64,000 bases of DNA from Streptomyces deccanensis (GTDB lineage Bacteria > Actinomycetota > Actinomycetes > Streptomycetales > Streptomycetaceae): NCBI RefSeq assembly GCF_022385335.1, contig NZ_CP092431.1, forward strand, positions 9,238,001 to 9,302,000, written 5' to 3'. Made by a program: the position numbers and the translations under genes. The number at the start of each line of letters is the position of its first letter. Positions within the stretch are counted from its first letter, which is position 1. This document shows positions 16,521 to 28,966 of this stretch, one piece after another. The notes beneath the pieces are model-generated. The model was not told the DNA's origin. It worked only from the letters and a program-made list of their open reading frames with translations, and did not search any database.

Positions 16521-17243
16521 TCAGCACCGGTCCCCGGCGGCCCGTACGAGGGCGTCGAACAGGCCCTGCTGCGCGGGGTCCTCGTGAGCGGTGTCCTCGG
16601 GGTGCCACTGCACGGCGGTGAACCAGCCGGGGGAGCCGGGGAGTTCCAGCCCCTCCACCGTGCCGTCGGCGGCGCGGGCGGTGACCTCCAGTCCCTCGCC
16701 CAGCCGGTCCACCCGCTGGTGGTGGTAGCAGGACGCCTCCACCTTCTGCGCGCCGGTGGCCCGCTCCAGCAGGGTGCCGCGTCGGATCGCCACCGGGTGC
16801 ACGAGGTGGCGGTGTTCGTGTTCCGGGCCGCCCATGTCCTGCTCCAGGGTGCCGCCGAGGGCTACGTCGACGACCTGGAGGCCCCGGCAGACCGCCAGCA
16901 GCGGGATGCCCGAATCCAGGGCGGCGCGGGCGACTTCGAGGTCGAAGGCGTCCTGCACATCGTCGACGTCGTAGACGCTGGCGTGGGTGTCGGTGGCGCC
17001 GTAGCGGTACGGGGCGAGGTCGCCGCCGCCCGGGAGGAGGACCCCGTCGAAGCGGGCGAGACGCGCGGCCGCGTCGCCGTCGGGCGCCGGGTGGATGCTC
17101 GCGGGTTCACCGCCCGCCCGCCACACGGCCTCGATCAGCGCGCGGGCGTTGACCTCGGCGGCGTACCGCAGCGCGGAGGTCGTGGCGGCGAAACGGGCGG
17201 GTACCGCGATCAGTGGTCGGGGCCGGCCCGTGGGTCGGGTCAC
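16521..17243 (-). CDS. Gamma-glutamyl amide hydrolase (PuuD-like class I amidotransferase)
   Basis: 240 residues. The family (peptidase C26) hydrolyses gamma-glutamyl-amide bonds, as PuuD does for gamma-glutamyl-GABA in putrescine breakdown. The nucleophile Cys119 lies in LLAVCRGLQ, with His214 and Glu216 in QWHPED completing the triad; the oxyanion strand LLPGGGDLAP is present. The GTG start (17241-17243) overlaps the stop of the preceding aldehyde dehydrogenase (GTGA), so the two are coupled. It is the last gene of a permease-dehydrogenase-hydrolase operon headed by an operator at 20272. In this context it probably releases glutamate from a gamma-glutamylated intermediate made by the ligase at 26292. 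Confidence 0.85.
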   Translation of the reverse strand: MTRPTGRPRPLIAVPARFAATTSALRYAAEVNARALIEAVWRAGGEPASIHPAPDGDAAARLARFDGVLLPGGGDLAPYRYGATDTHASVYDVDDVQDAFDLEVARAALDSGIPLLAVCRGLQVVDVALGGTLEQDMGGPEHEHRHLVHPVAIRRGTLLERATGAQKVEASCYHHQRVDRLGEGLEVTARAADGTVEGLELPGSPGWFTAVQWHPEDTAHEDPAQQGLFDALVRAAGDRC

Positions 17244-18730
17244 AACTGGATCCAGGTCGTCTTCAGCTCGGTGTACTTCTCCAAGGCGTGGGCGGACTTG
17301 TCGCGTCCGTTGCCCGACTGCTTCATCCCGCCGAACGGGACGGTCAGATCGCCCTCCTCGTAGCAGTTGACCCACACCGTGCCGGCCTTCAGCGCGCGCG
17401 AGACCCGGTGGGCGGTGGACAGGTCGGAGGTCCACAGGCCGGCGGCGAGGCCGTACTCGGTGGCGTTGGCGAGTCTCACGGCCTCGTCGAGGTCGTCGAA
17501 GGTGAGCACGGACAGGACGGGGCCGAAGATCTCCTCGCGGGCCAGCCGCATCCCGGGGTCCACCCGGTCGAAGACGGTCGGCTCCAGGTAGCTGCCTCCG
17601 GTCTCGGCGTGGGCCCGGGAGCCGCCAACGCGCAGGCGGGCGCCCTCGGTCAGACCGCCGGCGATGTGGTCCCGTACGCGCTCCAGGTGGGCCTCGCCGA
17701 CCAGGGCGCCCATCTCGGTGGCCGGGTCGAGCGGGTCGCCGACGCGCAGTTCCCGGGCGCGGGCCACGATCGCCTCGGTGACGCGTTCGGCGACGGAGGA
17801 GTGCACCAGGAGCCGGGAGGGCGCGGTGCACATCTCGCCCTGGTTGAAGAAGATGCCCCAGGCGGCGGTGGCGGCGGCCTTCTCCAGGTCGGGGGCGTCG
17901 GGCAGGATGATGTTCGGCGACTTGCCGCCCAGCTCCAGCCAGACGCGTTTGAGGTTGGAGTCGGCGGCGTAGCGCAGGAAGTGCCGGCCGACCGCCGTGG
18001 ACCCGGTGAACGCCAGCACGTCCACGCCGGGGTGGAGCCCGAGAGCGCGTCCGGCCGTCGGTCCGTCACCGGTGACGACGTTGAGGACGCCCGGCGGCAG
18101 TCCCGCCTCGGTGGCGATCCGACCGAGCAGCAGGGCGGACAGCGGGGAGTTCTCGGACGGCTTCAGGACCACCGTGCAGCCGGCCGCCAGCGCCGGGGCG
18201 ACCTTCCAACTCGCCAGTGTGAGAGGGAAGTTCCACGGCACCACCGCGCCCACGACACCGGCGGGCTCCCGGGTGACCAGGGCCAGGGCGTCGGGGGCGG
18301 TGTGGGGCGACTCGTCGGTGAGTTTGTCGGCCAGCTGCCCGTACCAGCGGAACGTGTTGATCGCGGCCCGCAGTTCGATGTCGTGGGCCTCCGTGTACGG
18401 CTTGCCCATCTCCAGGGTGATGGTCAGGGCGAGCTTCTCCCGCTGCTCTTCGAGGAGTTCGGCGACGCGGAGGAGGACGCGGCCCCGGTCGGCGGGGGCC
18501 AGGCGGGGCCACGGACCGGAGTCGAAGGCCCGGCGGGCGGCGGTCACGGCGAGGTCGACCTCGGCGCTGCCGGCGTCGGCGACCTCGACGAGAACCTGCC
18601 CGTCTCGGGGTGACACGACGGCGAAGGAGGCGCCCCCGCCCGGCTCGTCCACCCCGTCGATGTGGTGCCGGCCGGGCAGCTCCAGTTCCTTGGCGCGACG
18701 GAGCAGGGTGTCGTGGGCGGGGGCGGGCAT
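17240..18730 (-). CDS. NAD(P)-dependent aldehyde dehydrogenase (PuuC-like)
   Basis: 496 residues. Oxidises an aldehyde to the acid. The ALDH active site is complete: Glu266 in ELGGKSPN, Cys301 in NQGEMCTAPSR, cofactor strand FTGSTAVGR and the C-terminal PFGGMKQSGNGRD. The sequence is closest in feel to gamma-glutamyl-aminobutyraldehyde and betaine/aminoaldehyde dehydrogenases. The ATG at 18730 follows AGGAG. It lies between the APC permease and the gamma-glutamyl hydrolase, matching the puu order of uptake, oxidation and deglutamylation. The true substrate is unknown. Confidence 0.87.
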   Translation of the reverse strand: MPAPAHDTLLRRAKELELPGRHHIDGVDEPGGGASFAVVSPRDGQVLVEVADAGSAEVDLAVTAARRAFDSGPWPRLAPADRGRVLLRVAELLEEQREKLALTITLEMGKPYTEAHDIELRAAINTFRWYGQLADKLTDESPHTAPDALALVTREPAGVVGAVVPWNFPLTLASWKVAPALAAGCTVVLKPSENSPLSALLLGRIATEAGLPPGVLNVVTGDGPTAGRALGLHPGVDVLAFTGSTAVGRHFLRYAADSNLKRVWLELGGKSPNIILPDAPDLEKAAATAAWGIFFNQGEMCTAPSRLLVHSSVAERVTEAIVARARELRVGDPLDPATEMGALVGEAHLERVRDHIAGGLTEGARLRVGGSRAHAETGGSYLEPTVFDRVDPGMRLAREEIFGPVLSVLTFDDLDEAVRLANATEYGLAAGLWTSDLSTAHRVSRALKAGTVWVNCYEEGDLTVPFGGMKQSGNGRDKSAHALEKYTELKTTWIQL

Positions 18731-18780
18731 CGGCTCTCCTCTTCTTGACCTTGTGTGGGCGGGTGTGACGGCTGCGGCGG

Positions 18781-20247
18781 TCAGTCCGTGGCGGTCCGGG
18801 CGCCCCGGGTCAGCCGTGCCACGACGAGCCCCAGGACCAACACCGCCGGAACGGTCAGCTGGAGCCATACGGCGGTGGTCTCGTCGCCGCCGATGAGCGT
18901 GGTGAAGTTCTCGATGATCAGCCAGATCGCCCCGGCGATGCCGAGCGCGCCGAGGACCGGTGCGATCAGGGTGTTCCAGGGCCGGGTGTCGGCACGGGAG
19001 CGGCGGAAGAAGACGACCACGGAGACGGAGGTCAGGAGGTACAGCAGCATCATCGCGAGGACGGCCACACCGCTGAACCAGGAGAACAGCGTCAGCACGG
19101 GGTCCTTGCCCAGCAGGGCGAACGGTAGGACCAGGCCCGCCGCGATCACGGTCTGGACGATGCCGGCCGCCCAGGGGGAGTGGCGCCCGTTCAGCGAGGT
19201 CAGCCCGCGCGGCAGCAGGCCCTCGCGGCCCAGGGAGAACAGATAGCGGTTGGCGGAGTTGTGGAACGCCAGGATGCCGGCGAACAGCGAGGTGGCCAGC
19301 AGTACGGGCAGCACGTCGCCGGTCCAGGCGCCGAACTCCGCCGCGATGGGTGCGAAGACCCAGCCCGCGGCGTCGCCGCCCTCCAGCGCCTTGCCCGCCT
19401 CGGCCGTCGCCCGGGACGCGCCGTGCGCGGAGACCAGCATCCACGAGGTGAAGGCGAAGAAACCGGTGACCACCGCGACCGACAGATAGGTGGCGCGCGG
19501 GACGGTCCTCCTGGGCTCCCGGGCCTCCTCGCCGTAGATGGCGGTCGCCTCGAAACCGAACATCGACGCCACGGCGAACATCAGCGCCACACCGGGAGCA
19601 CCCTGGAGCGCCGCGTCCGGCGAGAAGCTGTCGGCGAAGCCCAGCCCCTCGGGGCCGCCGCCCTTGACGAAGGTGACGACGGCGAAGGCGATCAGGACGC
19701 TGAACTCCGCCAGGACGAACACGGCCAGGACCTTGGCGCCCATCTCGATCCCGGCGGCGCCGAGGACCTGGACCACCACCATCGTGACCAGCGCCCACAC
19801 CCACCAGGCGATGTGCACCTCGGTGTAGTGCTCGACGAGGCCGCTCACCGTGGCGCCGTAGAGCCCGTACATCGCGGCCTGGATGGCGCAGTAGGCGAAG
19901 AGCGCGACGCCGGCGCTGCCGGAGCCGGCCGAGCGGCCCAGCCCCTTGCCGATGTACGTGTAGAAGGCGCCGGCGTCCACGACGTGGCGGCCCATGGCGA
20001 CGAAGCCGATGGAGAACAGCAGGATCACGACGCCGGCCGCGAGGTACGCGGCGGGGACGCCGGCCCCGTTGCCGATGACGACGGCGATGGGGACGGCTCC
20101 GGCGATGCCGGTCAGCGGGGCCTGGGCGGAAAGGACGAAGAAGAGGATGCCCAGGACGCCGAGGGAATCGGGCTTGAGCCTGCCTGCGGTGGATGGTTCC
20201 TGTGAGCTGTGCGGGGCGACCGCCGTCTGACTGTCCACTCGGATCAC
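18781..20247 (-). CDS. APC-family amino acid/amine permease
   Basis: 488 residues with about 12 membrane segments. The N-terminal half has the APC signature SAQAPLTGIAGAVPIAVVIG and later FGFEATAIYGEEAREPRRTVPRA, typical of amino acid/polyamine/organocation permeases. The predicted role is uptake of an amine or amino acid that feeds the neighbouring gamma-glutamylation genes. Two starts are possible: the GTG at 20247 given here, or the GTG at 20238, which has AGGTGA at a better distance. The operator-like palindrome at 20272-20289 is just upstream, and a 50-base gap separates the gene from the aldehyde dehydrogenase. Confidence 0.85.
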   Translation of the reverse strand: MIRVDSQTAVAPHSSQEPSTAGRLKPDSLGVLGILFFVLSAQAPLTGIAGAVPIAVVIGNGAGVPAAYLAAGVVILLFSIGFVAMGRHVVDAGAFYTYIGKGLGRSAGSGSAGVALFAYCAIQAAMYGLYGATVSGLVEHYTEVHIAWWVWALVTMVVVQVLGAAGIEMGAKVLAVFVLAEFSVLIAFAVVTFVKGGGPEGLGFADSFSPDAALQGAPGVALMFAVASMFGFEATAIYGEEAREPRRTVPRATYLSVAVVTGFFAFTSWMLVSAHGASRATAEAGKALEGGDAAGWVFAPIAAEFGAWTGDVLPVLLATSLFAGILAFHNSANRYLFSLGREGLLPRGLTSLNGRHSPWAAGIVQTVIAAGLVLPFALLGKDPVLTLFSWFSGVAVLAMMLLYLLTSVSVVVFFRRSRADTRPWNTLIAPVLGALGIAGAIWLIIENFTTLIGGDETTAVWLQLTVPAVLVLGLVVARLTRGARTATD

Positions 20248-20271
20248 CTGTCGGGGACGGGGAGGATGGGT

Positions 20272-20289
20272 TCGTTTAGGCCCAAACGA
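20272..20289. promoter_or_regulatory. Operator-like palindrome, site 1 of three
   Basis: TCGTTTAGGCCCAAACGA is an 18-bp palindrome with one mismatched pair, containing GTTTA-GGCC-CAAAC. The same GTTTR-N4-CAAAC pattern with the same spacing is found at 26141-26154 and 26249-26262. It lies 24 bases upstream of the permease start, so it should control the permease-dehydrogenase-hydrolase operon. A half-like CGTTTGGCA occurs at 20317-20325. The rest of the 20290-20515 spacer shows nothing I recognise. Confidence 0.7.
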
Positions 20290-20515
20290 GTTGCCTCATC
20301 GTGGGCTCGCCCTATCCGTTTGGCAAGGGGGTCGGGGGAAGATTTTCGGCCGGTGCGACAGGCGTGCGCGGGAACGCCGGAAGGCCCCGGACGTCGGACG
20401 CCCGGGGTCATGACCTGGGGCTCGTCGAGGACGAGCGGCTGCGGGACGAGACCGTCGAGTGCGCCGGAGACCAGCCGGGTGCGTGGCCGTCGGCTCCTCG
20501 GGACCCGTCGCGACG

Positions 20516-21361
20516 TCACCGCCGGGGCGGCCGGATGCCGCGGAACTCCCAGTCGCCGCCGAGCGCGGTGGACAGGACCTCCTCGGACTCGGTGGGCTGC
20601 GCGCCGACGTCGGTGCGCACGGCGGTGGGCCCGGTCACGATGTGGTTGGTGAGTCGGCCGAGACCCTCCACCTCCACCTCGACGACATCACCGGGCCGCA
20701 CGGGCCGGGAGTTGGCCGGGGTGCCGGACAGCAGCACGTCACCCGGATACAGCGTGATGGTGCGGGCGATGTCGGCGACGAGGTAGTGCATGTCCCATTT
20801 CATCTCGTCGGTCGAGCCGTCCTGGACGACCTCGCCGTTGACGTACGTCCGCAGCCGCTTGCCGTGGAAGTCCCAGTCGGTGACCAGGCCGGGGCCGAGG
20901 GGGCAGAGGGTGTCGGACCCCTTCACCCGCAGCATCGAACCGGCGTCGGTGTCACGGAAGTCGTGCAGGCCGTAGTCGTTGGCGATCGTGTAGCCGGCGA
21001 TGTACGCGCCCGCCTCGGCCGGTGCGATGTTCCTCGCCGTTCTCCCGATGACGATGGCGACCTCGCCCTCGTAGTTGAGCCACTTGCAGCCCTCGGGGCG
21101 GACGATCGCGCCCCTGTGGGAGTTGAGGGACGAGGTCGGCTTGTGGAAGTACGTGGGCGTGTCGGGAAGTTCGATCCGGAACTCGTCGACGCGGCTGCGG
21201 TGGTTGAGGTGGACGGCGACCACCTTCGACGGCACGACCGGCGGCAGATGGTGCGCCTCCTCGGTCTTGACGCGACGGCCGTCCCCGGCGACGAGTTCGT
21301 CCCCGTCGACGGTGACCTGGACGGCGGCGCCGTCGAGGAGGATGCGGCGGTACTCAGGCAT
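20516..21361 (-). CDS. Fumarylacetoacetate hydrolase-family protein (HpaG-like isomerase/decarboxylase)
   Basis: 281 residues. HpaG-type enzymes decarboxylate and isomerise the ring-cleavage product of homoprotocatechuate. The FAH-fold metal site is visible: Glu98 and Glu100 in NYEGEVAIVIG and Asp129 in ANDYGLHD; HKPTSSL and SGTPANSRPV are also conserved. The start ATG at 21361 overlaps the stop of the upstream dioxygenase gene by eight bases, so it is the third gene of an HpaE-HpaD-HpaG-like set. Other FAH members hydrolyse acylpyruvates, so the exact step is inferred from the neighbours. Confidence 0.82.
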   Translation of the reverse strand: MPEYRRILLDGAAVQVTVDGDELVAGDGRRVKTEEAHHLPPVVPSKVVAVHLNHRSRVDEFRIELPDTPTYFHKPTSSLNSHRGAIVRPEGCKWLNYEGEVAIVIGRTARNIAPAEAGAYIAGYTIANDYGLHDFRDTDAGSMLRVKGSDTLCPLGPGLVTDWDFHGKRLRTYVNGEVVQDGSTDEMKWDMHYLVADIARTITLYPGDVLLSGTPANSRPVRPGDVVEVEVEGLGRLTNHIVTGPTAVRTDVGAQPTESEEVLSTALGGDWEFRGIRPPRR

Positions 21362-22277
21362 GGGTGGGCTCCGTGGTGGTCGTAGGGATGCCGCCGGTCC
21401 AGCCGTCGGCGGGGCGGTCGAACCAGAGGTGGACCTGACCGGTACCGACGGAGTTCTCGTACTCCCCGTACTGCCGGGCCCTGGCGACACAGGCCCGCTC
21501 GCCCAGCGCGCCCGCCATCATCAGGTAGTGGAAGAACTTGGCCTCGGGCTTGAACTTCCAGAACTCGTCCATGGTGTCGAGGACCTTGTCGTGCCGGCCC
21601 TCCTTGAACCAGGCGATCCGCTCCTCGTCGGCCGCGCGGGCCTCCGGGGTGAAAATGTGGACCGGATCGCTGGCCTCGTGGTCGCGCAGCTCGCGCAGCG
21701 GCCAGAAGGTGTGCGACAGGGCACCCGAGGCGATGACCAGCACCCGTCGCCCGGGGGTGGCGGCGATGCCGTCGGCGAGCGCGCGCCCCAGCCGCAGATG
21801 GTCCTCCATGTCCCCGGTCTGGCAGACCCCGATGGTCACCCACCGCTTGTCGGGCAGCCCCTCGCCCAGGAACTTCCAGAGGTTGATCGTGGCGTAGTAG
21901 ATGGGCAGGTACTCGTCCTCGATCGCGGTGATCCACGTGCCGTGCTTGTCCGCGAACTTCTCGATGTTGAGGGCGAGTTCGGGGTCGCCGGGGAAGTCGT
22001 AGGGCATCCGGCACATCCCGCGCGGCAGCTCCTCGGAGGTGAAGAGGCCGGCGCGGCGCGCCTGTGCGGCGACGACGAACTCGACGGTGGTCGCCCAGTG
22101 CGAGTCGAGGACGACGACGGTGTCGTAGTCGTCACGGTCGAAGACGTCCCGGCGCAGCTCCCGCAGGCCGGTGACGAGGGTGATCTCCTTGCCCTCGTTG
22201 AGCTCCAGCCGGTCGGCCTCCGGCAGGACGATGGTGGGGACGTGGGCTAGGAGACCCGCCCCGACGATCTCACCCAT
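21354..22277 (-). CDS. Class III extradiol ring-cleavage dioxygenase (HpaD-like)
   Basis: 307 residues. The enzyme is predicted to open a catechol ring next to the hydroxyls using Fe(II) and oxygen. Likely metal or catalytic histidines are His12 (AHVPTIVLPE) and His60 (VLDSHWATT), and ASGALSHTFWPL holds a third conserved His; FHYLMMAGALG and GTGQVHLWF are typical of the 3,4-dihydroxyphenylacetate 2,3-dioxygenase branch of the LigB/HpaD superfamily. It overlaps the aldehyde dehydrogenase gene upstream (8 bases) and the FAH-family gene downstream. The natural catechol may be homoprotocatechuate or a relative. Confidence 0.87.
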   Translation of the reverse strand: MGEIVGAGLLAHVPTIVLPEADRLELNEGKEITLVTGLRELRRDVFDRDDYDTVVVLDSHWATTVEFVVAAQARRAGLFTSEELPRGMCRMPYDFPGDPELALNIEKFADKHGTWITAIEDEYLPIYYATINLWKFLGEGLPDKRWVTIGVCQTGDMEDHLRLGRALADGIAATPGRRVLVIASGALSHTFWPLRELRDHEASDPVHIFTPEARAADEERIAWFKEGRHDKVLDTMDEFWKFKPEAKFFHYLMMAGALGERACVARARQYGEYENSVGTGQVHLWFDRPADGWTGGIPTTTTEPTHA

Positions 22278-23730
22278 GGCTGTTCCATCCGTTCGGTGCG
22301 GTGACGGTGTTCTTCAGGTCGCAGTAGAAGTCGAAGCTCCAGGTGCCGCCCTCCCGGCCGACCCCGGACTGACGGGAGCCGCCGAAGGGCGCCTGGAGGT
22401 CGCGTACGAAGAAGCAGTTCACCCACACCGTTCCCGCGACCAGCCGTTCGGTGACCCGTGCGGCGCGCTCGGGGTCACCGGTGGCGAGGGTGGCGGCCAG
22501 CCCGAAGCGGGTGTCGTTGGCGAGCCGGACGGCCTCCTCCTCGTCGGTGAAGGTCTGCAGGGTCAGCACCGGCCCGAAGACCTCCTCCTGCACGATCTCC
22601 GAGTCCTGGGCGACATCGGTGAGCAGCGTGGGCGCGTAGTACTGGCCCTCGCCCGGGTGCCCGCCGATGACCACCCGGGCCCCCGCCGCGACGGCCCGCC
22701 GCACGAACCCGTCGATCTTCTCCAGCTGCCGGGGGTGGATGTTCGGCCCGATGTCGGTGGACTCGTCCCGGGGGTCGCCCTGGCGCAGGGCGCCGGCCCG
22801 CTCCACGAACCGCCGGGTGAACTCCTCGGCGACCGACTCCTCGACGAGGAACCGGGTCGCGGCCAGGCAGACCTGCCCGGCGTTGTCGTACTGCTCCACC
22901 GCGAGGTCCACCGCCAGGTCCAGATCGGCGTCAGCGAACACCAACAGCGGTGACTTGCCGCCCAGTTCGAGGCTGAGCGGGGTGAGGTTCGGTGCCGCCG
23001 ACGCGGCGATCCGCCGGGCCGTCGGTACCGATCCGGTGAAGCTGATCCGCCGGACGTCCGGGTGCGAGGTGAGCGCGTCGCCGATCTCCGAGCCGTACCC
23101 CTGGACGACGTTGAGCACCCCGGCGGGCAGCCCCGCCTCGGCGGAGATGTCCGCCAGCAGCGACGCGGTGAGCGGGGTCCACTCGGCCGGCTTCAGGATG
23201 ACCGTGTTGCCGGCGGCCAGGGCCGGGGCGACCTTCCAGGTGGCCAGCATCAGCGGCGCGTTCCACGGTGTGATCAGCACGGACGGCCCGGCCGGGTCCC
23301 AGCTCACGTGGTTGGTGTGCCCGCGGGTCTCGAAGTCCTCGTGCTCCAGCGTCAGCAGCCAGTCGGCGAAGAACCGGAAGTTGTGCGCCACCCGGGGCAT
23401 GACGCCGCGCCGGTGGGAGCGCAACAGCGCCCCGTTGTCGTGCGTCTCGACGATCGCCAGCTCTTCGAGCCGCTTCTCGACCCCGTCGGCGATGGCGTGC
23501 AGGACGCGGGCGCGCTCGGCGCGGGAGGTGGCGGCCCAGTCGGGGAACGCCTCCCGGGCGGCGGCGACAGCGGCCTCGACCTCCGCCGCACCACCGCGAG
23601 CGATCTCGCCGAGCACCTGCCCGTCGATGGGCGAGACATCGGTGAAGGTCTCGGCAGAGCCGACCCGCCGCCCACCGATCCAGTGCCGGGTGTCGACGGA
23701 AACGCCGGCGACGGTGATTTTGTGATCCAT
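22270..23730 (-). CDS. Aldehyde dehydrogenase (HpaE-like, hydroxymuconic semialdehyde dehydrogenase)
   Basis: 486 residues. Expected to oxidise the semialdehyde produced by ring cleavage. Active-site residues are Glu255 (LELGGKSP) and Cys288 (NAGQVCLAATR); PWNAPLMLATWKVAPALAAG and PFGGSRQSGVGREGG are typical of 5-carboxymethyl-2-hydroxymuconate semialdehyde dehydrogenases. The ATG at 23730 is taken; an eight-base overlap with the dioxygenase gene follows. Upstream, 122 bases containing a repeat element separate it from the acetoacetate-decarboxylase-like gene, so the operon may continue through. Confidence 0.87.
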   Translation of the reverse strand: MDHKITVAGVSVDTRHWIGGRRVGSAETFTDVSPIDGQVLGEIARGGAAEVEAAVAAAREAFPDWAATSRAERARVLHAIADGVEKRLEELAIVETHDNGALLRSHRRGVMPRVAHNFRFFADWLLTLEHEDFETRGHTNHVSWDPAGPSVLITPWNAPLMLATWKVAPALAAGNTVILKPAEWTPLTASLLADISAEAGLPAGVLNVVQGYGSEIGDALTSHPDVRRISFTGSVPTARRIAASAAPNLTPLSLELGGKSPLLVFADADLDLAVDLAVEQYDNAGQVCLAATRFLVEESVAEEFTRRFVERAGALRQGDPRDESTDIGPNIHPRQLEKIDGFVRRAVAAGARVVIGGHPGEGQYYAPTLLTDVAQDSEIVQEEVFGPVLTLQTFTDEEEAVRLANDTRFGLAATLATGDPERAARVTERLVAGTVWVNCFFVRDLQAPFGGSRQSGVGREGGTWSFDFYCDLKNTVTAPNGWNSHG

Positions 23731-23769
23731 GACAGAGGGTGCCTTTCTAGCGGAGGTGACTGCGCCTAC

Positions 23770-23833
23770 TCAGGGGCGCGGGGCTGTATCGATGTGCGGC
23801 TCCGCCGCGTGGGCGCGACCAGCCACGAGCGAC
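23770..23833. repeat. REP-like element related to the long inverted repeats
   Basis: TCAGGGGCGCGGGG at 23770-23783 and GCGCGACCAGCC at 23813-23824 match the ends of the right arm of the repeats at 3569 and 54566. The middle is replaced by a short unrelated stretch that includes CGGCTCCGCCG. It lies in the 122-base gap between two co-directional catabolic genes, where it could form a small mRNA hairpin. Confidence 0.55.
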
Positions 23834-23852
23834 CCGCAGCCGCCCACGAACC

Positions 23853-24665
23853 TCACCCGGCAGCCGCCTCGGACGTCCCGGACTCCAGCAGCCGCCCCCC
23901 GTCCCAAACGACCCCCACCTGCCGGTAGTACGCGGCGATCGGCTCCTCGACCGACAGCCGCGCCAGTTCCTCCGTCGGCGCCTCGAACAACTCCAACTCG
24001 GCGTCACCAACCCACGGTTGACCTCCCTCGAAGGCCGCCGCCCCGGTCTCGATCAACTCGTCCAGCGCCAACCCCTTCCCGGCCTCGATCGACGGCAGCC
24101 ACCGGTGATGCGCCATGGGATGCGCGTTCACGAACCCGTTCGTCTCCGCCGGCTCCCGCAGCGTCACCACCGCCTGGGCCAACCTCCGGTCCGCCGCGGC
24201 CAGGGTCGCCCCGAACCGGGCCCCGGCCGCGATCCGCGGAGCGGGCCCGTACGGATGGGGCCGCGTCTGGTGGATGGACCCGAGCTTCTTCGGATACCCC
24301 TGGTGCAGCCCGCGGGCGATCGCGAAGTCCTTGTCGACCCAGATGTAGACGCACCGCGAGTACGTCCGCCCCTTGTACCGGCAGCGGACGACCGCGAAGG
24401 CCTCCTTGTACTGGGAGCGCACCGGATCCAGCAGCTCCGTCCCCGACGCCGAGCAGGACTGCCAGTCGGCCCAGATCAGCGCGACCGCACCGGGGTCCTC
24501 GTCGGCCAACTCCAGCGGCTCGGGCAGCAGTTCACGCACCCGCGCCGGATCCGTGCGGTACTCGACGGTGAGCAGGTCGCCCGAGTAGTGCCACGGCGGC
24601 GACGGGATCAGCGACGAGGCACCGCTCGCCGTCTTGGGGTGGAAGTATCCACGGACACTGGTCAT
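23853..24665 (-). CDS. Acetoacetate decarboxylase-fold enzyme (possible hydratase-aldolase)
   Basis: 270 residues. The family uses a Schiff-base lysine; QGYPKKLGSIH at about 122-132 holds the adjacent lysines (Lys126/Lys127) that correspond to the catalytic pair of acetoacetate decarboxylase. SPPWHYSGD and RCRYKGRTYSRCVYIWVDKD are also family features. Members can be decarboxylases or pyruvate-dependent aldolase-dehydratases. Between ring-cleavage enzymes and an electron-transfer gene pair, a role in the lower meta-cleavage pathway is plausible, as no HpaH hydratase or HpaI aldolase is seen here. The ATG at 24665 is 13 bases from the preceding reductase stop. Confidence 0.75.
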   Translation of the reverse strand: MTSVRGYFHPKTASGASSLIPSPPWHYSGDLLTVEYRTDPARVRELLPEPLELADEDPGAVALIWADWQSCSASGTELLDPVRSQYKEAFAVVRCRYKGRTYSRCVYIWVDKDFAIARGLHQGYPKKLGSIHQTRPHPYGPAPRIAAGARFGATLAAADRRLAQAVVTLREPAETNGFVNAHPMAHHRWLPSIEAGKGLALDELIETGAAAFEGGQPWVGDAELELFEAPTEELARLSVEEPIAAYYRQVGVVWDGGRLLESGTSEAAAG

Positions 24666-24678
24666 GGTCGGGAGGTCC

Positions 24679-25923
24679 TTACGCGGTGAGGGCGGGCTGC
24701 CGGAGCAGTGCGGCGCGGTGGCGGGCGGCGGCGGAGACGGTCGCGGGTCCACCGAGCGCGACGACCCCGACCAGCCGGCCGCCGTGGTGGTAGCCGACCA
24801 GGACGTCGCCGTCGGGGTCACCGTCCAGGACCCGTACGTCGTCCCTGCCGAGGACGGGCGCGCCGAAGGACTGCAACCGGAAGTCGTGCTGGTCGCTCCA
24901 GAAGGTGGGCAGCGGGGCGAAGGGTGCGGGCTCGCCGCCGGTGAGGACCTTCGCGGCGTGCTTGGCGGTGTCCGTGGGAATGGACCAGTGCTCGACCCGG
25001 CGGGGTACGCCGTCGTAGCGGGCGTTGGGGAAGCGGGCGACGTCGCCGACCGCGACGACGTTCGCGTGGCCGCCGACCCGCAGCTGTTCGTCGGTGAGCA
25101 CCCCGTCGGTCAGGTCGAGGCCGTTGCCCTCCAGCCACTCCACGTTGGCGAGCGAGCCCACCGACTCCACGACCACGTCGGCGGCCAGCACGGTCCCGTC
25201 GTCGAGCGCCACACCCGTGACCCGGTCCCCGCCCTCGAACCCGGCGACACCCGTGCCGAGCGCGAACCGCACCCCGCGCTCCTCGTGCCGTCGCCGCAGG
25301 GCGTGCCCGAGCAGTTCGCCGAGCGGGCCGACCATGGGCAGCGGCAGCGGATCGACGACCGTCACCTCGGCGACGCCGAGGCCCACGGCGGTGGCGGCCA
25401 CCTCGCAGCCGATGAACCCGGCCCCGACGACGACCACCCGGACACCGGGCCGGGTCAGCTCGACCCGCAGGCCCTGGGCGTCGGCGAGGGTGCGGACGGT
25501 GTGTCGTCCGGCGAGCGGGCCGGGACAGGACAGGCGGCGGGGCCGCATACCGGTGGCGACGACCAGACCGTCGTACGCCAGCCGCGACCCGTCGTCGAGG
25601 ACGACGGTCCGCTCGGTGAGGCGGGAGGCGACGACCTTCGTGCCGAGCCGCCACTCCACGTCGGCCACGCTCGCGCGCGGCCGGAAGGCCAGCGACTCGA
25701 AGGGCGCCTGCCCGGCCAGCACCTCCTTGGAGAGCGGAGGCCGGTTGTAGGGCATGTGCGGTTCCTCGCCGACCAGGGTGATCGCCCCGGTCCAGCCCGC
25801 TGCGCGCAGCTGCTCGGCGGCGCGCAGCCCGGCCATGGAAGCGCCGGCGACGACCACGCGGCCCGCCCTCGCGTCCGCTACCGTCCCCGGCCCCGCGTCC
25901 GTCACCGTGTCCGTCCCTGTCAT
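24679..25923 (-). CDS. NAD(P)H-dependent ferredoxin reductase
   Basis: 414 residues. A putidaredoxin-reductase-type flavoprotein that passes electrons from NAD(P)H to the ferredoxin next door and on to a P450. The FAD-binding motif is GRVVVAGASMAGLRAAEQLR (21-40), the NAD(P)-binding motif VVVVGAGFIGCEVAATA is central, and VVAVGDVARFPN is the second FAD motif. PYNRPPLSKEVLAG is characteristic of ferredoxin reductases of oxygenase systems. The ATG at 25923 lies 5 bases after the ferredoxin stop, so the two are translated together. Confidence 0.92.
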   Translation of the reverse strand: MTGTDTVTDAGPGTVADARAGRVVVAGASMAGLRAAEQLRAAGWTGAITLVGEEPHMPYNRPPLSKEVLAGQAPFESLAFRPRASVADVEWRLGTKVVASRLTERTVVLDDGSRLAYDGLVVATGMRPRRLSCPGPLAGRHTVRTLADAQGLRVELTRPGVRVVVVGAGFIGCEVAATAVGLGVAEVTVVDPLPLPMVGPLGELLGHALRRRHEERGVRFALGTGVAGFEGGDRVTGVALDDGTVLAADVVVESVGSLANVEWLEGNGLDLTDGVLTDEQLRVGGHANVVAVGDVARFPNARYDGVPRRVEHWSIPTDTAKHAAKVLTGGEPAPFAPLPTFWSDQHDFRLQSFGAPVLGRDDVRVLDGDPDGDVLVGYHHGGRLVGVVALGGPATVSAAARHRAALLRQPALTA

Positions 25924-25928
25924 GGGGC

Positions 25929-26117
25929 TCAGCCCTCGATCCGGATGGCCTGGAGCGGGCAGACGTCGGCGGCTTCCTCGACCTCGTCCAGGAGCGCGTC
26001 GTCGGGGTCGCTGACATAGGCCAGCCGCCCGTTCGCGTCGAGCTGGAAGACGTCGGGGGCGGCGAAGACGCACTGTCCGTGGTCCTGGCACTTGTTCATG
26101 TCGACGACGACCTTCAT
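25929..26117 (-). CDS. Small 3Fe-4S-type ferredoxin for a P450
   Basis: 62 residues. An electron carrier between the reductase and the cytochrome P450. Cluster ligands are Cys10, Cys16 and Cys53 in C-x2-H-x2-C and a later CPLQAI. His13 takes the place of the second cysteine, the hallmark of the actinobacterial P450 ferredoxins that bind a 3Fe-4S cluster. The ATG at 26117 gives the standard family N-terminus MKVVVDMNKC. It is the first gene of a unit reading on into the reductase and ring-cleavage genes, with promoter and operator immediately upstream (26141-26183). Confidence 0.92.
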   Translation of the reverse strand: MKVVVDMNKCQDHGQCVFAAPDVFQLDANGRLAYVSDPDDALLDEVEEAADVCPLQAIRIEG

Positions 26118-26140
26118 GGCCGGTCCTCCGGGGGTAGCTC

Positions 26141-26154
26141 GTTTGACTCCAAAC
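26141..26154. promoter_or_regulatory. Operator-like palindrome, site 2 of three
   Basis: GTTTG-ACTC-CAAAC, a perfect 5-bp inverted repeat with a 4-base spacer. On the minus strand it starts one base after the candidate -10 element of the ferredoxin operon, so a bound repressor would cover the transcription start. Confidence 0.75.
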
Positions 26155-26183
26155 AACATATGAACCGGGCCACCCCTGGTCAA
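26155..26183 (-). promoter_or_regulatory. Candidate promoter of the ferredoxin operon
   Basis: On the minus strand TTGACC (26178-26183) and TATGTT (26155-26160) are separated by 17 bases, a good match to a housekeeping sigma-factor promoter. The GTTTG-N4-CAAAC site follows directly. Confidence 0.6.
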
Positions 26184-26221
26184 TACCTGTCCGAGTGGAT
26201 AATTTTTTCGGCCCCGGCCCC

Positions 26222-26250
26222 TTGCGGGCCGCTTCACCCGTTCCTATCGT
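26222..26250 (+). promoter_or_regulatory. Candidate promoter of the ligase-P450 operon
   Basis: TTGCGG (26222-26227) and TATCGT (26245-26250) are spaced by 17 bases. The operator-like palindrome at 26249 overlaps the end of the -10 element, the same arrangement as in the divergent ferredoxin promoter. Confidence 0.5.
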
Positions 26251-26262
26251 TTGGCATCAAAC
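26249..26262. promoter_or_regulatory. Operator-like palindrome, site 3 of three
   Basis: GTTTG-GCAT-CAAAC, again with perfect 5-bp arms and a 4-base spacer. It overlaps the candidate -10 box and start region of the glutamine-synthetase-like gene, 30 bases before its GTG. The pattern is shared with sites 20274-20287 and 26141-26154. Confidence 0.75.
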
Positions 26263-26291
26263 AAACGGCCTCAGTCGTCGAGGAGTCAACG

Positions 26292-27647
26292 GTGAGCGCA
26301 TCCGAAACACCGGCCGTCCGGCAACACCAGGAGCGGCTGGCCGCCGAGGGCATCGACGTGGTCCGGGTGACCTATCCCGACCTGATCGGTACCGACCGGG
26401 CCCGGGACGTGCTGCTCGACCAGTTGCCGACGGCCTGCGAGCACGGGCTCGCCTTCTGCCGGGCGGTCTACCACACCTCGCCCCAGGGCGACGTCGTCCC
26501 CGTGGCCGGTGGTCTGGACGCGGGCCTGCCCGACATCCACGTACGGCCCGACCTCGACACCCTGGTCGCCCTCCCCTGGGAGCCCGGCGTCGCCTCCTGC
26601 CTCGGCGAGGCCATCGACCCCGCGACGGGGGCACCCGCCCCCGAATCCCCCCGCGACCTGCTGCGCTCGGTGCTCGCCCACTGCGCCGACGAGGGTCTGC
26701 GCCCCGTGGTCGGCCCCGAACTCGAGTACTTCCTCTGCGACGCGGACCCCGCCTCCCCGAGCGGCTGGCGGCGCTACTCGGGCACCACCGGCGCCGTCTA
26801 CACCGCCGGCCTGCGCGCCGACCCCGACAACCATCTGCTGCCCACCCTGCGCCACCTCCGCGACCTGCGCATCGGCGTCACCAACGGCAACCACGAGTTC
26901 GACGGCGGCCAGTTCGAGATCAACCTGACGCACTCGGACGCCCTGTCCGCCGCCGACCGCTCCTTCCGCTTCAAGGCCGCCGTCAAGGAACTCGCCCGCA
27001 AGGAGGGCCGTCTCGCCACCTTCATGGCCAGACCCTTCAACGACGCGGGCGGCTCCGGCTTCCACCTCCACCTGTCCTGCGACGACGAGCACGGCCGCAA
27101 CGCCTTCGACGACCCCGAGGGCCACCACGGACTGTCCGACACCGCCCGCCACGCCATCGCCGGGGTCCTCGCCCACGCCCCGGCGCTCGCCGCCCTCGCC
27201 AACCCGACGGTCAACTCCTACAAACGCTTCGGCCCGGACACCCTCGCCCCCTGGCTGATCGACTGGGGCCTGGACAACCGCAGCGCCATGGTCCGCATCC
27301 CGCCCGAGCGCGGTTCCGGCGCCCGGCTCGAACTGCGCCTCGGCGACGCCGGCGCCAACCCGTACCTGCTGATCGCGGGCACGATCGCCGCCGCCCTGCT
27401 CGGCGTCCGGGCGGGCGAGGAACCCCCGGCCCCGCTGGAGGGCTACGGCTACGACACCGCCAGGTCGGCCGTGCTGCCGGCGAACCTCGCCGCCGCCCTC
27501 GACGCCCTGGAGGCGGACACCGCCCTCACCGAGATCCTCGGCAAGGCCTTCACCACCTCGTACCTCAGCTACAAGCGCGACGAGGTCGCACGCTTCCAAC
27601 GGCACGTCACCGACTGGGAGTTCACCGAGTACGCCTACCACCTGTGA
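26292..27647 (+). CDS. Glutamine synthetase-like gamma-glutamyl-amine ligase
   Basis: 451 residues. Members of this branch join glutamate to an amine using ATP, e.g. GlnA3/GlnA4 of Streptomyces, PuuA, IpuC and the anilide synthase AtdA1. GS active-site motifs are present: Glu143/Glu145 (GPELEYF), Glu209 (GQFEI), His258/His260 (GSGFHLHLS), NPTVNSYKR (304-312) and the arginine-rich stretch around LELRLGDAGANPYL. The GTG at 26292 follows GGAG and gives a family-length N-terminus. It is unlikely to be the housekeeping enzyme, given its position with a P450 gene 20 bases downstream and a PuuD-like hydrolase and APC permease in the same putative regulon. The amine substrate is unknown. Confidence 0.87.
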   Translation: MSASETPAVRQHQERLAAEGIDVVRVTYPDLIGTDRARDVLLDQLPTACEHGLAFCRAVYHTSPQGDVVPVAGGLDAGLPDIHVRPDLDTLVALPWEPGVASCLGEAIDPATGAPAPESPRDLLRSVLAHCADEGLRPVVGPELEYFLCDADPASPSGWRRYSGTTGAVYTAGLRADPDNHLLPTLRHLRDLRIGVTNGNHEFDGGQFEINLTHSDALSAADRSFRFKAAVKELARKEGRLATFMARPFNDAGGSGFHLHLSCDDEHGRNAFDDPEGHHGLSDTARHAIAGVLAHAPALAALANPTVNSYKRFGPDTLAPWLIDWGLDNRSAMVRIPPERGSGARLELRLGDAGANPYLLIAGTIAAALLGVRAGEEPPAPLEGYGYDTARSAVLPANLAAALDALEADTALTEILGKAFTTSYLSYKRDEVARFQRHVTDWEFTEYAYHL

Positions 27648-27667
27648 CGCCTGGGAGCACCTCCATC

Positions 27668-28966
27668 ATGACCACTTCAGCCCGCCCCGCCTCCGTGCGC
27701 GAGGCCGTGCAGGAACCCATGCCGCTGGACGACGTGGACCTCGCCGACCTCGACAACTTCACCGACGGTGTCACCCCGTGGCGCATGTTCCACACCCTGC
27801 GCCACCAGGACCCGGTCCACTGGCAGCCGGAGGAGGCCCCCAACTCCGGCTTCTGGGCGGTCACCCGGCACGTCGACATCGCCCGCGTCGACCGCGACGC
27901 CGAGACCTTCACCTCGACGAGGTTCGTCAACCTGGAGGAGGTCGACGAGGACCAGATCAGGACCCGCGCCTCCATCCTCGAACTGGACGGCGTCCGCCAC
28001 CGCGCCCTGCGCAGCGTGATCCAGCGCCAGTTCGGCGCGAGCGTCATCAACAGCTACACCGACTTCCTGCGCGGCCTGACCGCCACCACCCTCGACGCGG
28101 CCCTCGCCAAGGGCACCTTCGACTTCGTCGCCGACGTCTCCGCCGACTTCCCCATCAACGTCCTGGCCCGCCTCCTCGACGTCCCCCCGGAGGACAACCA
28201 GAAGCTCATCGACTGGGGCAACCGCATCATCGGCAACACCGACCCCGACTACGCGGACGTCCTGCTGAACAGCGCGGAGAGCGAGCGGTTCAAGCATCTG
28301 CCGTTCCGCTCGCCCGCCTCCCTCGAAGTCTTCGAGTACGGCCGCGAACTGGCCCGGCAGCGCCGCGGCGGCGACGGCACCGACCTGGTCTCCAGGCTGG
28401 TCAACACCACCCCGCGCGACGGGGTCCCGCTCTCCGCACAGGACTTCGACAACTACTTCCTGCTGCTGGTCGTCGCCGGCAACGAGACCACCCGCCACAC
28501 CATCACCCACTCCATGCTGGCCCTGCTCCAGCACCCGGAGCAGCTCGCCCGCCTCCAGGAGGACCCCTCCCTGATCCCGGTGGCGACGGAGGAGTTCCTG
28601 CGCTGGGCGTCCCCCGTCTACCACTTCCGCCGCACCGCGACCCGTGACGTCGAACTCGGCGGCAAACGGATCAAGGAGGGCGACAAGGTCGTCATGTGGT
28701 ACGCCTCCGGCAACCGCGACGAGGAGGTCTTCGGCAATCCCTACGACCTCGACGTCGCCCGCGCCGACAACGACCATGTCACCTTCGGCAAGGGCAGCCC
28801 TCACCTGTGCCTGGGCAACCTGCTGGCCCGCACCGAGATCCGCATCATGTTCGAGGAGCTGATCCCGCGCCTCGCCGACATCCGCCTGGTCGGTGACGTC
28901 CCGCGCGTCCGCTCCAACTTCGTCAACGGCATCAAGAAGCTGCCGGTCGAGGTGACCCTGGCCTGA
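27668..28966 (+). CDS. Cytochrome P450
   Basis: 432 residues. A haem monooxygenase fed by the ferredoxin and reductase across the divergent promoter. The haem-ligand loop is FGKGSPHLCLG with Cys381; the I-helix oxygen-activation motif is VVAGNETTRH; the K-helix ExxR is in EEFLRW. The sequence resembles the CYP124/125/142-type group of actinobacteria, whose members oxidise lipids and terpenoids, but fold-level similarity does not fix the substrate. It follows the ligase gene by 20 bases (same operon) and its stop is 3 bases from the convergent isomerase gene. No polyketide or peptide synthetase is near, so a catabolic role is more likely than biosynthetic tailoring. Confidence 0.92.
   Translation: MTTSARPASVREAVQEPMPLDDVDLADLDNFTDGVTPWRMFHTLRHQDPVHWQPEEAPNSGFWAVTRHVDIARVDRDAETFTSTRFVNLEEVDEDQIRTRASILELDGVRHRALRSVIQRQFGASVINSYTDFLRGLTATTLDAALAKGTFDFVADVSADFPINVLARLLDVPPEDNQKLIDWGNRIIGNTDPDYADVLLNSAESERFKHLPFRSPASLEVFEYGRELARQRRGGDGTDLVSRLVNTTPRDGVPLSAQDFDNYFLLLVVAGNETTRHTITHSMLALLQHPEQLARLQEDPSLIPVATEEFLRWASPVYHFRRTATRDVELGGKRIKEGDKVVMWYASGNRDEEVFGNPYDLDVARADNDHVTFGKGSPHLCLGNLLARTEIRIMFEELIPRLADIRLVGDVPRVRSNFVNGIKKLPVEVTLA

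Follow-up and report, generated by a model that had tools for sequence, protein, structure and literature searches.

What would bring a glutamine synthetase (GS)-like ligase, a cytochrome P450 and enzymes of aromatic ring cleavage together in one bacterial locus? The question is raised by a cluster of eleven genes at positions 16521-28966 of a 64,000-nucleotide stretch of Streptomyces deccanensis DNA, hereafter called the window, which corresponds to positions 9,238,001-9,302,000 of the 10.1-Mb single-contig genome. A first reading of this DNA, referred to below as the original prediction, had proposed a single regulon for a possibly undescribed pathway, in which an aromatic amine would be gamma-glutamylated, oxidised by the P450 and subjected to meta-cleavage, an outline to which family assignments and conserved synteny lend support. 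With modest confidence, the cluster is proposed here to serve the regulated catabolism of tyramine- or dopamine-type amines, the amine being kept under a gamma-glutamyl mask until after the ring is cleaved. What is observed directly comprises the gene content and its synteny, the conserved palindromes, the family assignments and the active-site motifs; the reactions, the substrate and the pairing of regulator and operator are inferred.

A predicted route built on a glutamyl mask

The eleven genes can fairly be read as the three adjacent transcription units first envisaged, namely permease-PuuC-PuuD, ferredoxin-reductase-ADC-HpaE-HpaD-HpaG and the divergent GS-P450 pair, each with a palindrome upstream of its first gene. 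Family scans with NCBIfam and Pfam, which cover most genes of the window between ~8.9 and 37.3 kb and whose scores were computed on the longest open reading frames (ORFs), some of them exceeding the gene in length, agree with the identity and position of the genes named at the outset. Two members of the set had been overlooked, however: a PuuC-type aldehyde dehydrogenase (17240-18730, 496 amino acids) and an acetoacetate decarboxylase (ADC)-like protein (23853-24665, 270 amino acids). These two genes, like all window genes below for which no strand is given, lie on the minus strand.

The ligase that would attach the glutamyl group (26292-27647, plus strand, 451 amino acids, PF00120) scores 262 of 650 bits with the GGputSyn (PuuA-type) model, below the 302 of 470 bits obtained with type III GS. 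In an active-site alignment, E327 of GSI (numbering as in PMC6529630) is replaced by Leu, and Leu or Thr occupies this position in all six cluster ligases aligned (Thr in the one from locus L078), the GSI of the same genome having Glu there; a GS paralogue of that genome (L005), being out of frame, was excluded from the comparison. Besides, Y179 of GSI aligns to a gap and S53 of its DGSS loop is not retained, and all residues checked for metal, ATP and glutamate are kept. According to excerpts of PMC6529630, it was the loss of E327/Y179-type residues that argued for S. coelicolor GlnA4 being an amine ligase, before its assay in vitro. The GlnA4 route to gamma-glutamylethanolamide resembles the present cluster in that an E327-less GS-like ligase starts the catabolism of a monoamine, but the GlnA4 substrate is aliphatic and neither a P450 nor ring cleavage figures in those excerpts.

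At the other end of the glutamylated stage, the PuuC-type dehydrogenase finds its best NCBIfam model in PuuC (562 of 850 bits, the next model reaching 485) and its best PDB chain in the gamma-glutamyl-gamma-aminobutyraldehyde dehydrogenase 4lih (586 bits), followed by 5iuu and KauB. The adjoining PuuD-like gamma-glutamyl hydrolase (16521-17243, 240 amino acids, Peptidase_C26, PF07722 with E 1.9e-48) also has PuuD as best NCBIfam model, with 64 of 266 bits, and its PDB relatives include PuuD 6vtv, ranked below Lin1909 and other amidotransferases. The unit begins with an APC-type amino acid/amine permease (18781-20247, 488 amino acids, PF00324/PF13520), for which amine uptake is proposed.

As for the aromatic ring, the P450 (27668-28966, plus strand, 432 amino acids, PF00067), which is CYP125/124-like by its PDB neighbours, is accompanied by a ferredoxin reductase with Pyr_redox_2 and Reductase_C domains (24679-25923, 414 amino acids) and by a small ferredoxin (25929-26117, 62 amino acids) whose translation contains CxxHxxC...CP, a motif that we take to denote the 3Fe-4S type. 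Three ring-cleavage enzymes follow the Hpa pattern, each below the equivalog cut-off of its model: a LigB-fold extradiol dioxygenase (21354-22277, 307 amino acids; HpaD_Fe, 121 of 316 bits), whose best PDB chain is the 3,4-dihydroxyphenylacetate 2,3-dioxygenase 8iq8, a ring-cleavage semialdehyde dehydrogenase (22270-23730, 486 amino acids; HpaE, 541 of 638 bits) and an FAH-family isomerase/decarboxylase (20516-21361, 281 amino acids; PF01557; HpaG-C-term, 210 of 276 bits). The ADC-like protein, related to MppR and 4zbo, matches PF06314 with E 2.6e-58 and the MppR model with 180 of 380 bits. Its YPKKLG motif aligns with FPKKLG, MPKQFG and YPKKIG in 4zbo, MppR and 5upb, the first lysine of the PK motif being kept in all four proteins and the second in all but MppR. 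This lysine presumably forms the Schiff base, and 4zbo has aldolase-dehydratase activity. The ADC-like protein could replace both a hydratase and an aldolase, and is put forward as a pyruvate hydratase-aldolase.

Assembled in order, these enzymes would define the following route. An amine imported by the permease would be converted by the ligase into gamma-glutamyl-tyramine, to which the P450, fed by ferredoxin and reductase, would add a second ring hydroxyl to give gamma-glutamyl-dopamine. The HpaD-like enzyme would then perform 2,3-extradiol cleavage, the HpaE-like enzyme would oxidise the resulting semialdehyde, and the HpaG-like enzyme would catalyse isomerisation and release the former C2 carbon as CO2, yielding R-CH2-CH=CH-CO-COOH. 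Through its Schiff-base lysine, the ADC-like protein would hydrate this compound and split it by retro-aldol cleavage into pyruvate and R-CH2-CHO. For homoprotocatechuate, textbook chemistry gives succinate semialdehyde as the aldehyde, R being CH2COOH; here R would be CH2CH2NH-gamma-glutamyl, which makes the predicted aldehyde 4-(gamma-glutamylamino)butanal, the PuuC substrate. The PuuC-like enzyme would oxidise it to the gamma-glutamyl derivative of gamma-aminobutyric acid (GABA), and PuuD-like hydrolysis would release GABA and glutamate. The glutamyl tag would block both the cyclisation of the amine onto the ring-cleavage aldehyde and the closure of aminobutanal to pyrroline.

Such a scheme also bears on the missing enzymes. 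No HpaI aldolase (TIGR02311) is matched genome-wide, which agrees with the earlier remark that none is seen in the window, HpaH is absent from the cluster-protein matches at E<=0.001 (no genome-wide search was aimed at it), and no PuuB was found among the cluster proteins scanned (again with no genome-wide search aimed at PuuB). These absences had been taken for gaps, a view that we do not share: no amine oxidase of PuuB type would be needed if the amide stayed on through ring cleavage, and the ADC-like protein could stand in for the Hpa enzymes. With gamma-glutamyl-aminobutyraldehyde as the cleavage product, PuuC and PuuD would have their place beside ring-cleavage genes.

Each half of this scheme, Hpa ring cleavage and Puu amine masking, is known, and their combination has no description in the literature searched. 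Compared with the homoprotocatechuate (Hpa/Hpc) pathway, HpaD-, HpaE- and HpaG-like enzymes would act in the same chemical order, but the cluster versions are sub-equivalog, HpaI is lacking, and an ADC-like protein, a GS, a P450, PuuC and PuuD are added. With the gamma-glutamyl-putrescine (Puu) pathway, the cluster has in common a GS-like ligase, a PuuC-type dehydrogenase, a PuuD-type hydrolase and the predicted intermediate gamma-glutamyl-gamma-aminobutyraldehyde, although this aldehyde is proposed to arise here from ring cleavage and retro-aldol splitting and there arises from an amine oxidase. For the ADC-like protein, a parallel exists in the phenol meta-cleavage of Saccharolobus solfataricus: as far as the excerpts of PMC7820114 go, the ADC-family proteins Sso1221 and Sso1222 are induced with the meta-pathway, and the authors propose an aldolase-like role for them by likeness to MppR, cited there as condensing pyruvate with an aldehyde. 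That system differs in that those excerpts describe neither glutamylation nor an assay of the two proteins. Likewise, no account of the catabolism of gamma-glutamyl-tyramine or gamma-glutamyl-dopamine was found in the literature searched, outside of which most subscription journals fall; this fits the earlier view of a possibly undescribed pathway.

If the proposal is correct, a function would be named for a cluster whose dioxygenase marker occurs in 47/199 sampled genomes of the genus, as well as for an orphan group of ADC-family proteins. It would also give gamma-glutamylation a clear reason, the masking of a reactive amine during ring cleavage, and predict that catecholamine breakdown yields GABA and pyruvate, while the P450/ligase pair might prove useful for catecholamine production.

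Conservation and probable common control of the gene set

Whether these genes belong together was examined in 107 loci, all with a dioxygenase more than 70% identical to that of the window and with gene presence assessed by tblastn. Forty of the loci compared come from a sample of 199 genomes of the genus, in which 48 dioxygenase matches were found in 47 genomes (the window itself, G001, G045, G073, G081, G099, G147 and G150 standing outside the 40), and 80 are named loci, the best 80 of 247 dioxygenase relatives; among these 80, the closest is that of Streptomyces caniscabiei, with 98% identity. Of the resulting 120, 10 were set aside because their dioxygenase stretch duplicated another, leaving 110, and L088-L090, whose dioxygenases do not exceed the 70% identity threshold, were then excluded. 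Some genomes contribute two loci, and this sampling over-represents close relatives, so that the counts are not independent.

All eleven genes are present in 77/107 loci, in the same order and orientation in 76 of the 77; the original prediction had named unlinked genes in close relatives as a finding that would speak against it, and linkage is what these loci display. Gene by gene, HpaE is found in 107 loci, HpaG and ADC in 106, GS in 98, ferredoxin and reductase in 97, PuuC and PuuD in 92, P450 in 91 and the permease in 87, some of the absences being artefacts because several of the stretches end early. Flanking genes are not shared in this way, and since the set is conserved while its surroundings vary, the genes travel as a unit; their linkage is not due to chance. 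Accordingly, CobN, common to only 4/107 loci, and two inositol-type neighbours, shared by 0/107 of the stretches compared, were discarded as cluster members.

Beyond close relatives, the dioxygenase marker occurs across 8 families of the class. Among 394 genomes of the class, ADC and dioxygenase are both present in 29, the dioxygenase alone in 1, ADC alone in 2 and neither in 362 (Fisher p ~2e-40, not corrected for kinship). In 72,556 plasmid records, the dioxygenase (E<=1e-40) is found in 6 and ADC (E<=1e-50) in 5, all among those 6, with GS (E<=1e-60) in 4 of the dioxygenase-bearing records. The sixth, from Sphingobium TomTYG64, combines a 37-38% identical dioxygenase with an annotated aldolase HpcH and hydratase HpcG, no GS, P450 or ADC being annotated in its 20.9 kb. 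In another phylum, the Novosphingobium plasmid pABRDHK22 carries FAH (76%), ADC (56%), dioxygenase (55%) and HpaE (53%) together with GS (35%), P450 (39%), a 2Fe-2S ferredoxin, a second aldehyde dehydrogenase (39%) and a MarR gene. We tentatively suggest that the route is complete for tyramine or dopamine, that an ADC fold would perform its hydration and aldol steps, that Hpa and Puu chemistry would be fused at gamma-glutamyl-aminobutyraldehyde, and that the same core would have been joined, in this second phylum, to a ligase and a P450 that are both distant. As regards the dioxygenase itself, 4 of the 47 marker-bearing genomes of the genus hold 57-58% relatives; in L088-L090, such LigB dioxygenases stand with no other gene of the set within 20 kb, and two of these three loci adjoin asparagine-synthase-like ORFs, as judged by eye.

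The common control first proposed for the three units is supported by operator-like palindromes of consensus GTTTG-N4-CAAAC, located by pattern search upstream of each first gene: GTTTAGGCCCAAAC (20274-20287) precedes the permease operon, GTTTGACTCCAAAC (26141-26154) the ferredoxin operon and GTTTGGCATCAAAC (26249-26262) the GS-P450 operon. Within the window alone, their frequency is only mildly unusual, with 6 strand-matches (<=1 mismatch) against 1.45 expected and 2/100 shuffles reaching 6. In the 10.1-Mb genome, a longer form of the pattern has 3 exact matches, all in the cluster, and one mismatch adds 3 places, at 9,331,723 (immediately beyond a MarR gene, on its 3' side), 3.11 Mb and 3.76 Mb; a reversed control pattern has zero matches there. 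In the 77 complete loci, 272 sites (<=1 mismatch) were counted, of which 254 precede GS, ferredoxin, permease or PuuC and 18 lie elsewhere. A site stands upstream of ferredoxin in 77/77 of these loci, of GS in 76/77 and of the permease in 73/77, distances (-60 to +260) being counted relative to the start of each tblastn match, and a site between ferredoxin and GS being able to count for both. Further away, the distant loci represent all but one (G529) of the 21 genomes outside the genus in which the dioxygenase is matched; the low-GC L204 and L205, in which crude gene calling found no set genes, are kept among these 20. Of them, 13/20 have at least one site. On two Embleya plasmids, the palindrome also separates a GATase1 gene from an amidohydrolase gene (L228) or from an LLM gene (L229).

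The MarR gene next to the near-match lies ~65 kb from the window cluster, and relatives of it sit inside the locus in 56/107 cases and in 15/20 distant ones. Its score with the HpaR model is 44 of 121 bits, below the cut-off and slightly below that of another MarR model, which makes it weakly HpaR-like. A MarR protein that would act on GTTTG-N4-CAAAC probably controls the cluster. In S. deccanensis, this gene lies side by side with those of an F420-type LLM oxidoreductase and an amidohydrolase (genome positions 9331789-9335282), and relatives of these genes are found in the cluster locus of some other genomes.

Proposed substrate and chemistry weighed against other readings

Tyramine and dopamine, already named as candidate substrates, are favoured by linked decarboxylase genes. 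Among the 16/107 loci without P450, 6 (L078, L081, L082, L087, L121 and L137) carry a pyridoxal phosphate-dependent decarboxylase whose top family models are tyrosine decarboxylases, and this gene occurs in 0/91 loci with a P450. In such loci, DOPA would be decarboxylated to dopamine and ring hydroxylation would be unneeded. No close P450 relative exists genome-wide in G165, G055 and G096 (best 39%), nor in G158; the genomes of L087, L121 and L137 have a 92-93% P450 relative elsewhere. In the same line, the S. lunaelactis plasmid pSLUN1 combines GS, MarR, ADC, PuuD, PuuC, HpaE, HpaD, FAH and permease genes with the decarboxylase (85%), without an annotated P450 in 24.9 kb. A second, different decarboxylase, for which the best PDB chain is a DOPA decarboxylase, is present in 8/20 distant loci. 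As to the dehydrogenase, PuuC relatives (51-61%) lie ~25 kb or less from the dioxygenase in G346, G365, G444 and G492 and ~2 kb from ADC in G513, that is, in 5/10 distant genomes with a match.

These data have to be set against other explanations, of which the least remote, although we regard it as unlikely, keeps the same logic with another aryl-alkylamine (a methoxylated, N-methylated or beta-hydroxylated phenethylamine, or benzylamine), the P450 being a demethylase or other hydroxylase that feeds gamma-glutamyl-catecholamine. The PDB neighbours of the P450 give no pointer to tyramine, and neighbours of one-carbon or demethylase type recur: FolD in 11, PurU in 6, a second P450 in 17 and a GcvT-like gene in 2 of the 107 loci, and PurU in 5, a Rieske oxygenase with its reductase in 4, FolD in 1 and a GcvT-like gene in 1 of the 20 distant ones. 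In some loci they point to additional entry substrates, namely methoxylated or N-methylated amines, and the P450 could act as a demethylase, the remaining scheme being unchanged. However, no such neighbour was seen next to the cluster of the window, the tyrosine/DOPA-decarboxylase-like genes point to tyramine or dopamine, and the similarity to PuuC suits a C4 aminoaldehyde. Rather improbable, in our view, is a deamination by the P450, whereby alpha-hydroxylated gamma-glutamyl-dopamine would fall apart into glutamine and an arylacetaldehyde that PuuC would oxidise to homoprotocatechuate for the ordinary Hpa pathway. The gene set would allow this and the ring enzymes do resemble HpaD, HpaE and HpaG; yet P450-free variants retain GS, G165, G055 and G096 have no close P450 relative anywhere in their genomes, the genome of S. 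deccanensis has an ADC protein and no HpaI, the PuuC model surpasses phenylacetaldehyde dehydrogenase models by 562 to 474 bits, and PuuD would be left with little to do.

The remaining readings are all very improbable. The analogy with aniline degradation, on which the original prediction leaned, takes its appeal from the joint presence of a GS-like ligase, an amidotransferase-fold hydrolase, an oxygenase and ring cleavage, and the aniline (Atd/Tdn) pathway does proceed from glutamylation to oxygenation and meta-cleavage, a gamma-glutamylanilide being oxidised to catechol. But that pathway uses a Rieske dioxygenase, absent from the cluster proteins in the Pfam scan, and loses its amine nitrogen before ring cleavage; by general chemistry, one P450 would not convert an anilide to catechol, and PuuC, ADC and the amino-acid decarboxylases linked to the cluster would go unexplained. 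The analogy is therefore not upheld. Degradation of a cyclic secondary amine of morpholine or piperidine type, with the ring-cleavage genes as unrelated neighbours, is no more probable: such pathways have a similar combination of P450, ferredoxin, reductase and GS, but here ferredoxin, reductase and ADC are co-directional with HpaE, HpaD and HpaG, the palindromes extend to GS-P450, and the genes are together in 77/107 loci and, for the most part, in another phylum. Lincosamide-type pathways use extradiol cleavage, and the solitary 57-58% dioxygenases of L088-L090, two of them near asparagine-synthase-like ORFs, could recall a biosynthetic cluster for a secondary metabolite; the least probable of all for the present locus, this reading is at odds with the catabolic make-up of the set and with a marker spread over 8 families.

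Several observations nevertheless weigh against tyramine- or dopamine-type catabolism under a glutamyl mask. Among P450s of solved structure, those closest to the cluster enzyme are for the most part hydroxylases of lipids, steroids and terpenes. With 125 of 905 and 121 of 299 bits, the decarboxylase falls far short of the curated cut-offs, and its relatives occur in 28/199 genomes of the genus but at the dioxygenase locus in just 5 of the 28. L084, L166 and L168 (~20 kb each) have neither P450 nor decarboxylase, L084 lacking GS as well, the decarboxylase-bearing L087 is cut by a contig end, and seven further P450-less loci are short. In the ligase, D50 is not clearly lost, an Asp aligning in 4/6 cluster ligases after an 11-residue insertion. 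PuuC and PuuD are each absent from 15/107 loci, including L078, L081 and L082, whose genomes have a 53% PuuC relative elsewhere, and 8/18 distant genomes have no PuuC at E<=1e-120. No HpaF-type isomerase is linked to the cluster, as first remarked for the window, and genome-wide the sole CHMI match (PF02962) is weak (31.9 bits) and unlinked, at 2.9 Mb. On pABRDHK22, neither an annotated PuuD nor a GTTTG-N4-CAAAC palindrome is found in 24.9 kb, and the second aldehyde dehydrogenase is not PuuC-like by NCBIfam; palindrome sites are also missing from 7/20 distant loci. Finally, LLM (24/107 and 13/20 distant loci), GATase1 (19/107 and 15/20) and amidohydrolase (8/107 and 1/20) genes have no step in the mechanism.

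Variation at the edges of the locus

Distant loci also vary in their oxygenases, P450 being labelled in 13/20 and GS in 15/20. In L191 and L202, where no P450 is labelled, a Rieske oxygenase and its reductase are present, as if another oxygenase could substitute for it. Such a pair lies within or next to the distant clusters L186, L191, L200 and L202 (4/20, against 0/107 close loci). A ~513-amino-acid protein family recurs at the reductase/decarboxylase end of the distant clusters L194, L196, L197, L198 and L200; its L198 member, the one scanned, matches neither NCBIfam nor Pfam models within the limits applied.

In L104, L135 and L149, as well as in L227 on an S. canus plasmid, HpaG/TetR and the permease are separated by a second P450, and FolD, accompanied by PurU in the first three, lies past PuuD, an arrangement that suggests a demethylation branch. 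A TetR-type regulator gene is present in 91/107 loci and lies between HpaG and the permease in L052, L061, L091 and L133; in the window, a remnant of such a gene was recognised at 20411-20504 (minus strand) by blastn and tblastn comparison with L091, L133, L153 and L061.

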